In this document: piece after piece, positions 3,772-27,646 of the stretch
Layout of the letters: every line of letters starts with the position of its first letter
How positions within the stretch are numbered: position 1 is the stretch's first letter
Assembly: GCA_947468085.1 (NCBI GenBank)
Contig: CANIKY010000019.1
Location: forward strand, 1 to 38,853
Length of the DNA stretch: 38,853 nucleotides
Source of the DNA: Paracoccaceae bacterium
GTDB lineage: Bacteria > Pseudomonadota > Alphaproteobacteria > Rhodobacterales > Rhodobacteraceae
Direction of reading: 5' to 3'
Program-made: the position numbers and the translations under genes
The notes under the pieces: generated by a model
Told to the model about the DNA's origin: nothing
Database searches by the model: none
What the model saw: only the letters and a program-made list of their open reading frames with translations

Positions 3772-4137
3772 ATGAACGCGATTGACACAATCAAAGACAC
3801 CGTGGCCAAGAACGATGTTGTCTTGTTCATGAAAGGCACCAAGATGATGCCGCAATGCGGATTTTCATCGCGTGTGGCGGGGGTGCTAAATTACATGGGC
3901 ATCGAGTTCGCCGATGTGAACGTTCTGGCCGATGCCGAGATACGTCAGGGTATCAAGGACTTTTCGGACTGGCCCACGATCCCGCAGCTTTACGTCAAGG
4001 GCGAGTTTGTCGGCGGCTGCGACATCGTGACCGAGATGACCCTGTCGGGCGAGTTGGACCAACTCTTGGAAGCCAAAGGTGTCACCTTTGACAAAGCCGC
4101 TTCAGAAAAGATCCGCGAAGCCAATAAAGAAGCCTAG
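3772..4137 (+). CDS. grxD: Monothiol glutaredoxin, Grx4/GrxD family
   Basis: [26 protein letters not shown]...[24 protein letters not shown] active site. Confidence 0.95.
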
Positions 4138-4152
4138 GCGGGCGGGTTAACA

Positions 4153-4169
4153 AATTTTCTGCGAAAATT
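4153..4169. repeat. Short inverted repeat, TGC-loop orientation
   Basis: AATTTTC-TGC-GAAAATT, 7-bp perfect arms. Confidence 0.8.
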
Positions 4170-4176
4170 GATGCTT

Positions 4177-4196
4177 GGCGCGCTGAAAAGCGCGCC
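4177..4196. repeat. GC-rich hairpin 3' of grxD, possibly a terminator without a T-tract
   Basis: GGCGCGCT-GAAA-AGCGCGCC, perfect 8-bp stem with a GAAA loop. Confidence 0.6.
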
Positions 4197-4199
4197 GAT

Positions 4200-4241
4200 G
4201 TCCTTTGAACTGACAAATAAAAAAAAGTACCCCCCCCTGTC
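4200..4241 (-). repeat. G8/T8 dispersed repeat, copy 1
   Basis: Minus strand GACAGGGGGGGGTACTTTTTTTTATTTGTCAGTTCAAAGG; similar to plus strand 35970-36006. Confidence 0.6.
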
Positions 4242-4257
4242 GGGCCGCGCTACACCA

Positions 4258-4276
4258 AGATTTTCGCAGAAAATCT
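4258..4276. repeat. Short inverted repeat, GCA-loop orientation
   Basis: AGATTTTC-GCA-GAAAATCT, 8-bp perfect arms. Confidence 0.8.
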
Positions 4277-4293
4277 GTTACACCTCTGGCAGA

Positions 4294-4662
4294 TCAGTTG
4301 ATCACTGCGTCCAGTCTGTCGGCCAAAGCCTCCGCCTGAGCCGCGATATGGGACAAAACTTCCACCGACCCCTGCGCAACGCCCGAGGGGTCGACCGCGC
4401 CTGTTTGCTTTAACAAACGCTCCATCTCGGCGATGCGCGCTTTGGTGCGGCGCAGGTCTTCTTCCAATGTGGCGGTCCGGTCGGCCAGCATCAAACCCGC
4501 CATCAAAAGCATCCGCACCTCTGGCAAGCGGCCGACTTTCGCTTGCAAGGGGCCTGCCTCGTCATCCAGCATCTTGGCCGCAGCTTGCAAAAACGTCTCT
4601 TCGCCAGCCTGACAGGTGACAAGAAATTTGCGATCGGCAATAAATATTTCAAGATCAGGCAT
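4294..4662 (-). CDS. zapA: Cell division protein ZapA
   Basis: MPDLEIFIADRKFLVTCQAGEETFLQAAAKMLDDEAGPLQAKVGRLPEVRMLLMAGLMLADRTATLEE; ZapA family, next to tkt as is common in alphaproteobacteria. Confidence 0.9.
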   Translation of the reverse strand: MPDLEIFIADRKFLVTCQAGEETFLQAAAKMLDDEAGPLQAKVGRLPEVRMLLMAGLMLADRTATLEEDLRRTKARIAEMERLLKQTGAVDPSGVAQGSVEVLSHIAAQAEALADRLDAVIN

Positions 4663-17603: not shown

Positions 17604-18386
17604 ATGATCGTCGTGGAAGATCTTCACCGTCATTTCGGCGCCTTTCGTGCCGTGGATGGGGCATCGCTGGAAATTGCTTCGGGGTCGATCACTGGCCTTA
17701 TTGGGCCAAATGGCGCCGGCAAAACCACGTTGTTTAACGTGATCGCAGGGCGGTTAAAGCCCACCTCTGGCCGCGTGCTGATGGATGGGCAAGATATCAG
17801 CGGCCTTGCGCCGCATGAATTGTTTGCCAAAGGATTGCTGCGCACCTTTCAGATTGCTCATGAATTCGCCTCTATGACAGTGCGTGAAAATTTGATGATG
17901 GTGCCTGCGGGTCAAGCTGGTGAAAAACTGTGGAACACTTGGTTCCGACGCGGCCTGATTGCCCAAGAAGAGGCGGCTTTGCGCAAGAAAGCCGATGAAG
18001 TTCTTGAATTCCTAACAATTTCCCACATTGCAGATGAAAAAGCCGGCAATATTTCGGGCGGGCAGAAAAAGCTCGTCGAACTGGGCCGCACGATGATGGT
18101 GGATGCCAAAGTGGTGTTTTTGGACGAAGTTGGCGCGGGGGTGAACCGCACGCTGCTCAACACCATTGGCGATGCGATCGTGCGCCTGAACAAAGAGCGC
18201 GGCTATACGTTCTGCGTGATCGAACATGACATGGATTTCATCGCGCGCTTATGTGATCCGGTGATTGTGATGGCCGAAGGCAAGGTGCTGGCCAAAGGCA
18301 CAGTGGATCAGGTCAAGAATGACGAACGCGTGATTGAAGCCTATCTGGGCACCGGCTTGAAAAACAAGGTGCTTGCGCATGGCTGA
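17604..18386 (+). CDS. LIV-type ABC transporter ATP-binding protein (LivG-like)
   Basis: GLIGPNGAGKTTLFNVIAGRLKPTSG ... NISGGQKKLVELGRTMMVDAKVVFLDEVGAGV. Confidence 0.95.
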   Translation: MIVVEDLHRHFGAFRAVDGASLEIASGSITGLIGPNGAGKTTLFNVIAGRLKPTSGRVLMDGQDISGLAPHELFAKGLLRTFQIAHEFASMTVRENLMMVPAGQAGEKLWNTWFRRGLIAQEEAALRKKADEVLEFLTISHIADEKAGNISGGQKKLVELGRTMMVDAKVVFLDEVGAGVNRTLLNTIGDAIVRLNKERGYTFCVIEHDMDFIARLCDPVIVMAEGKVLAKGTVDQVKNDERVIEAYLGTGLKNKVLAHG

Positions 18387-18398
18387 CCCCAAAGAACA

Positions 18399-18415
18399 GA
18401 TTTTCTGCGAAAATC
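18399..18415. repeat. Short inverted repeat, TGC-loop orientation
   Basis: GATTTTC-TGC-GAAAATC. Confidence 0.8.
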
Positions 18416-18426
18416 CTGAGAAAAAC

Positions 18427-18445
18427 CAATTTTCTGCGAAAATTG
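18427..18445. repeat. Short inverted repeat, TGC-loop orientation
   Basis: CAATTTTC-TGC-GAAAATTG. Confidence 0.85.
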
Positions 18446-18455
18446 TGTCGCAGAG

Positions 18456-18469
18456 TTTTCGCATGAAAA
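18456..18469. repeat. Degenerate copy of the short inverted repeat
   Basis: TTTTC-GCAT-GAAAA. Confidence 0.55.
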
Positions 18470-18479
18470 TTCGTCACTG

Positions 18480-18498
18480 GAATTTTCGCAGAAAATTC
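18480..18498. repeat. Short inverted repeat, GCA-loop orientation
   Basis: GAATTTTC-GCA-GAAAATTC. Confidence 0.85.
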
Positions 18499-18529
18499 GT
18501 GAGCGCGACCGCTGTGATGGAGCCCCCCC

Positions 18530-19240
18530 ATGCCTGACCCCTTCCTGATCGGCGAGGCGATGACGGGCGGCTATGGCGCCACCGACATTTTGCACGACTG
18601 CACCATTGCCGTTGAAAAAGGCCAAATTGCCGTCATCGTCGGCCCAAATGGCGCGGGAAAATCCACCGCGATGAAGGCGGTTTTTGGAATGATCAACCTG
18701 CGCGGCGGTCGGGTGCGGCTGAATGGCGAGGATATAACCAAACTTAGCCCCCAAGACCGCGTTGCCCGTGGCATGGCCTTTGTGCCGCAGACCCACAACA
18801 TTTTCACCTCAATGACGGTGGAAGAGAACCTTGAAATGGGGGCCTTCCTGCGCCGTGACGACATCAAGCCAGCTTTAGAGCAAGTTTATCACCTGTTCCC
18901 CATCCTCAAGACCAAGCGCACCCAGCCTGCAGGCGAGTTGTCGGGCGGCCAGCGCCAGCAAGTGGCCGTAGGCCGCGCCTTGATGACCCAGCCACAGGTA
19001 TTGATGCTGGATGAGCCTACCGCCGGTGTCAGCCCGATTGTGATGGACGAACTTTTTGACCGCATCATCGAAGTGGCGCGGTCTGGCATCTCGATCCTGA
19101 TGGTCGAGCAAAACGCCCGTCAGGCCCTGAACATCGCCGACAAAGGCTATGTGCTTGTGCAAGGGGCCAACCGTTACACCGACACCGGGGCCAATCTTTT
19201 GGCCGACCCCGATGTGCGCCGCAGCTTTTTGGGGGGCTAA
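18530..19240 (+). CDS. LIV-type ABC transporter ATP-binding protein (LivF-like)
   Basis: VIVGPNGAGKSTAMKAVFGMINLRGG...LSGGQRQQVAVGRALMTQPQVLMLDEPTAGVSPIVMDELF. Confidence 0.95.
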   Translation: MPDPFLIGEAMTGGYGATDILHDCTIAVEKGQIAVIVGPNGAGKSTAMKAVFGMINLRGGRVRLNGEDITKLSPQDRVARGMAFVPQTHNIFTSMTVEENLEMGAFLRRDDIKPALEQVYHLFPILKTKRTQPAGELSGGQRQQVAVGRALMTQPQVLMLDEPTAGVSPIVMDELFDRIIEVARSGISILMVEQNARQALNIADKGYVLVQGANRYTDTGANLLADPDVRRSFLGG

Positions 19241-27627: not shown

Positions 27628-27646
27628 GATTTTTCGCAGAAAAATC
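27628..27646. repeat. Short inverted repeat, GCA-loop orientation (singleton)
   Basis: GATTTTTC-GCA-GAAAAATC. Confidence 0.75.

Follow-up and report, generated by a model that had tools for sequence, protein, structure and literature searches.

What is a cluster of short palindromes doing between two genes of a LIV transporter operon? The 143-bp spacer at 18387-18529 of the window (the whole 38,853-nt stretch of Paracoccaceae DNA that was analysed, from a genome hereafter termed G000) separates livG-like and livF-like ABC ATPase genes, and an initial annotation described four copies of an inverted repeat within it, attributing them to a mobile REPIN/MITE-like element, to an RNA processing element, or to both. 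The repeats belong to a REP/BIME-like family of short palindromes that is peculiar to part of the Rhodobacteraceae, and its members resemble functional elements at gene ends, akin to known REPs, rather than a recently jumping element.

The livG-livF cluster and other sites in the window

The four-copy cluster exists as described, with three intact hairpins and one damaged hairpin, in the following arrangement:

17604..18386, plus strand: livG-like ABC ATPase gene upstream of the cluster, stop codon at 18384-18386
18378..18390, plus strand: left copy of a 13-bp imperfect direct repeat flanking the insert, CATGGCTGACCCC, equal to the livG stop/livF start overlap of empty sites
18398..18416, plus strand: hairpin copy 1, TGC orientation (GATTTTC-TGC-GAAAATC at 18399-18415), seven pairs and an A-C mismatch at the foot, foot C at 18397
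18427..18445, plus strand: hairpin copy 2, TGC orientation, CAATTTTC-TGC-GAAAATTG, foot C at 18426
18453..18472, minus strand: hairpin copy 3, degenerate with a 4-nt loop, GAGTTTTC-GCAT-GAAAATTC
18480..18498, minus strand: hairpin copy 4, GCA orientation, GAATTTTC-GCA-GAAAATTC, foot G at 18499
18529..18541, plus strand: right copy of the 13-bp imperfect direct repeat, CATGCCTGACCCC, at the present livF start
18530..19240, plus strand: livF-like ABC ATPase gene downstream of the cluster, ATG at 18530

Copy 3 has an intact counterpart in the relatives G005 (GAATTTTC-GCAC-GAAAATTC) and G013, and G015 keeps one of the four hairpins. Taken singly, a hairpin has little stability (-5 to -6 kcal/mol); the spacer RNA as a whole folds to -45.1 kcal/mol (z = -5.1) in one nested hairpin that joins copy 1 to copy 4 and copy 2 to copy 3. 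A 52-codon open reading frame (18379-18537) links the old and the new livF starts in frame, passing through the hairpins; its score lies at the threshold of the gene caller, and it is probably spurious and was not taken as a gene.

Two further sites of the family in the window, at 4155/4261 and 27631, were absent from the initial list:

4152..4170, plus strand: member lying in a convergent spacer, behind the stop of the gene that ends at 4137; retained in G015, G004, G005 and G013
4258..4276, minus strand: inverted partner of 4152..4170, behind the stop codon of the gene at 4294-4662 on the minus strand; retained in G005 and G013, decayed in G015 and G004
27628..27646, minus strand: lone member between divergent genes; kept in G015, G013 and G005, absent from G004

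Across orthologues of the 4137-4294 spacer, hairpins persist in G015, G004, G005 and G013, some of them with compensated arms; eight other congeners have an empty site, and G007 bears hairpins with GGC or GAC loops.

The repeat unit and its genomic placement

A genome-wide search for the core, proposed in the initial annotation, returned 69 exact matches to TTTTCTGCGAAAA in the 3.22-Mb genome (33 on the plus strand and 36 on the minus strand) against none for the reversed control; in the window, allowing at most two mismatches, 8 matches were found where 1.3 are expected. The repeat unit consists of a stem of 8 bp closed by a 3-nt loop, with a nearly invariant unpaired C at the foot; its length of 19 bp (about 20 with the foot base) and high copy number agree with the general description of REPs as palindromes of 20-40 bp present in many copies per genome. 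Variants exist beyond the 69 exact copies, including GGC/GCC loops and altered inner stems, and the apparent invariance of the core is partly imposed by the exact-match search. The three bases outside TTTTC...GAAAA differ among copies (GAT, GAA, AGT, ACT, GGA, CAA and others), yet these outer three stem pairs form, all as Watson-Crick pairs, in 69, 69 and 64 of the 69 copies, compared to shuffled means of 37.6, 54.3 and 49.9. The covariation of the outer arms first read from the cluster is thus borne out over the whole family, and the accompanying claim that the stem is conserved rather than the sequence stands among copies but not among orthologues, where the stem sequence is kept as well. 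Immediately 5' of the stem, read along the TGC strand, the foot base is a C in 67 of 69 copies (75/78 and 66/70 in two relatives) and is unpaired with the base opposite; the foot consensus is NCAC, of which C alone is invariant. In sequence the unit reads (C)NNNTTTTC-TGC-GAAAAN'N'N', often occurring as inverted pairs.

Gene context was taken from sequence stretches around copies with a custom codon-usage gene caller, and placement was counted over 919,617 bases of the relatives G005 and G015, 90% of them coding, such that spacers make up less than 10% of the DNA. As expected from the initial annotation, the copies are mostly extragenic, with 142 of 148 lying in spacers. Spacers with copies number 40 of 115 among the convergent ones, 37 of 317 among the co-directional ones and 5 of 146 among the divergent ones (convergent versus divergent, P = 1.6e-11); these rates come from stretches chosen around copies and are not genome averages, but the contrast among spacer types stands. 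In 74 of 117 cases (63%) in these two relatives, no more than 15 nt separate the hairpin edge from a stop codon, often with overlap of a TGA. The family has the mostly extragenic, 3'-end placement and avoidance of divergent spacers that are typical of REPs in general. One copy, at position 1496 of G000:C72 (L040), lies within an open reading frame and is retained at the matching position in G015 and G005.

Relative to the upstream gene, the two loop orientations occur in nearly equal numbers (66 TGC, 51 GCA), which argues against a strand-specific reading of the loop in RNA and makes a DNA-level role possible. Mirror symmetry is found in 27 of the 29 convergent spacers that hold at least two copies, and G000 contains 22 inverted neighbour pairs of the kind known from BIMEs and REPINs. 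The pairing anticipated by the initial annotation is real, but the fixed distance of about 100 bp is not, as spacing ranges from 25 to 147 bp in two classes. Inverted neighbours have outer arms in common above chance (12/22 versus 8.0, 18/28 versus 9.6 and 16/23 versus 9.9), and the DNA between them differs among loci, unlike the conserved inner DNA of a REPIN that moves as one unit.

Inheritance among relatives

With all exact clusters of G000 available for comparison, site sharing was counted without bias from the side of each relative, a procedure in which altered gene order also scores as not shared. Of the relatives' sites, 36 of 41 in G015 and 36 of 44 in G005 are shared with G000 (82-88%), compared to 6 of 20 and 2 of 20 in the more distant congeners G009 and G011 (10-30%). 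When orthologous hairpins are aligned, 1430 of 1440 arm positions are identical (99%), a value that owes something to choosing sites with the core in both genomes, compared to 512 of 720 (71%) for the four adjacent bases on each side; the outer three pairs, which lie outside the search pattern, are still about 98% identical. At the three window sites, an unbiased count in four close relatives found 11 of 12 sites and 21 of 28 hairpins retained, so individual hairpins do get lost.

Among 16 genomes of the genus, the livG-livF junction holds hairpins in 8, a bare ATGGCTGA overlap of the livG stop and livF start in 5 and other DNA in 3, and the occupied/empty polymorphism foreseen in the initial annotation therefore exists, with filled and exactly empty sites among relatives. 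Filled sites carry a near copy of the stop/start overlap on either side, as if the junction had been duplicated upon insertion, and recombination between these near copies could give back the empty form. Several other genera also have hairpins in this spacer, some with other loops. The livG-livF regions of L092, L096, L098, L104, L110 and others in the Rhodobacteraceae bear no hairpins, and their livF appears to be extended at the N-terminus by a sequence of the type NPYQxDRGNKDRSI. A GAGTATTTTxGCAAAGATGAA-like string recurs before livF in many relatives (L065, L073, L081, L088, L094) and looks like another family-wide spacer motif.

Across the Rhodobacteraceae, GATTTTTC-N3/4-GAAAAATC is present in 52 of 298 genomes, with a control match in none, and the loop class varies by lineage (TGC, GGC, GGA, GTC, GTAC, GTCC, TGGC); the family is patchy, with lineage-specific loops. 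In a tree built from four gene fragments, the genomes rich in hairpins do not form one clade, which implies repeated loss, repeated spread or exchange.

RAYT transposases and known REP systems

RAYTs (NF047646) occur in 13 of the 16 genus genomes, that of G000 included; an apparent absence from G000 in a Pfam PF01797 search was a miss by a weak model, and NCBIfam and protein searches recovered the gene:

G000:C130:3401-3829 (L183), minus strand: own RAYT, no flanking hairpin or REP, His at the catalytic Tyr position

This His stands where the E. coli TnpA-REP has the catalytic Tyr115, and Y115F is a catalytic mutant of that enzyme (PMC8266576). The initial annotation had looked to a RAYT with flanking copies, but no hairpins were found flanking any RAYT in the genus genomes: genus RAYTs adjoin GTAG REPs or nothing. 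RAYTs also occur in genomes without hairpins. The His-type RAYT is found in most of the genus (L183, L176, L177, L180, L189, L190, L191, L192, L194) with its HUH motif kept, and is possibly a domesticated, cleavage-dead hairpin binder. A second RAYT class (L165-L172, L154-L160), with the Tyr mostly intact, is followed by classic GTAG REPs, such as GTAGGGTGGGTGCAACCCACCC. In G000:C130, G004:C5, G005:C5 and G015:C20, the His-type RAYT gene (the residue was read in the first three) has a hairpin pair at a distance of about 2-2.8 kb, which may be plain synteny; a cobT-like coding sequence follows the RAYT in G000 and G004.

The likeness to REPs and BIMEs that had been noticed in the cluster extends to the family, which is genome-wide, extragenic and palindromic, with inverted pairs and occupied or empty sites in relatives. 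Two REP superfamilies are known, tagged GTAG and CGTC, and the hairpins bear the tag of neither. CGTC-tagged REPs lie next to the 3' ends of ORFs and between convergent genes, mainly in Alphaproteobacteria (Di Nocera 2013; PMC3733652), and the hairpin family shares with them this placement and taxonomic range, stems of 8-9 bp, an unpaired motif at one end, inverted dimers and the absence of a link to a transposase. It departs from them in having a single invariant tag base, the foot C, with a variable 3' side and neither the unpaired CGTC nor the CCA tail, in a loop of 3 nt instead of 4-5 nt, and in tag-outward dimers that are as common as tag-inward ones. With the GTAG REPs, REPINs and BIMEs of E. 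coli and Pseudomonas (PMC3116915; PMC8266576) it has in common extragenic palindromes, inverted pairs, several sequence subfamilies and a RAYT in the genome, but the NCAC foot replaces the unpaired GTAG, the spacer within pairs is unconserved, no RAYT is flanked and the RAYT of G000 has lost its catalytic Tyr. According to work cited in PMC12306157, REPs of E. coli stall ribosomes and affect translation when they lie no more than 15 nt from a stop codon; the hairpins resemble these REPs in their distance to the stop codon, with unrelated sequence. The curated models of Rfam gave no credible match to the hairpin, a literature search with the core string returned only an unrelated C. elegans paper, and one for REPs in Rhodobacteraceae or Rhodobacterales yielded nothing relevant.

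Weighing the explanations

If the hairpins were a REPIN/MITE in active or recent transposition, driven in trans by a RAYT, this would account for the matching outer arms of inverted neighbours, for the RAYTs in most of the genus, for sites that differ in distant congeners and for the filled and exactly empty livG-livF junctions. This reading, the first offered by the initial annotation, is nonetheless unlikely: most sites are common to close relatives, different loci do not share the DNA within pairs, RAYTs occur in hairpin-free genomes and are flanked, if at all, by GTAG REPs, and the RAYT of G000 lacks the catalytic Tyr. At some BIMEs of E. coli, gyrase relieves supercoiling between convergent genes, and the hairpins might by analogy be duplex DNA sites at which a nucleoid protein or topoisomerase plays this role. 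The strong excess between convergent genes and the absence of strand bias relative to the gene speak for such sites, but the stem ends vary freely if paired, a pairing that a duplex-reading protein would not need, and the closeness to stop codons points to the transcript; the proposal is unlikely.

A location directly after stop codons and in convergent spacers would also suit transcription terminators of the upstream genes, but the hairpins have weak A/T stems with no U-tract after them, in place of the GC-rich stem and T run of an intrinsic terminator, and a separate GC-rich, terminator-like hairpin lies between the copies at 4155-4273, as it does in relatives. A strict scan found terminators in 1 of 40 copy-bearing spacers versus 16 of 75 others, as though hairpins replaced them; a relaxed scan (11/40 versus 25/75) did not agree, and copy-bearing spacers do not lack terminators by that count. 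A terminator role is quite unlikely. Least probable is a REP-like family taken over by its hosts as a standard stop-proximal 3' element, in which a host factor would read the stem and foot C, the loop class would have been switched genome-wide between lineages, and the Tyr-less RAYT could be the factor.

With a 3'-end placement like that of known REPs and a nested fold at livG-livF, 3'-end RNA hairpins that set decay or ribosome behaviour are favoured. On balance we lean towards an inherited REP/BIME-like family, kept by selection and most likely acting as stop-proximal 3' RNA hairpins. Copies across the genome, covarying stems, their placement, inverted pairs, conservation by descent and empty sites are seen in the sequences themselves; selection for function, action as RNA and an effect on livG/livF are what we infer. 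The family would have spread before the split of G000, G004, G005, G013 and G015, and would since have been inherited largely in place under purifying selection. In the transcript, a hairpin immediately 3' of the stop codon would slow 3'-to-5' decay and/or affect the ribosome at the stop. At livG-livF, where the RNA processing element of the initial annotation is plausible given the predicted fold, four nested units would form one long hairpin and determine how much livG (and upstream) message there is relative to that of livF.

Whether REP-like repeats ride along selfishly or do work for the cell is an old question, and this hairpin family, REP-like without a tie to the RAYTs of the same genomes, makes the question testable, with filled and empty livG-livF operons in relatives offering the comparison.
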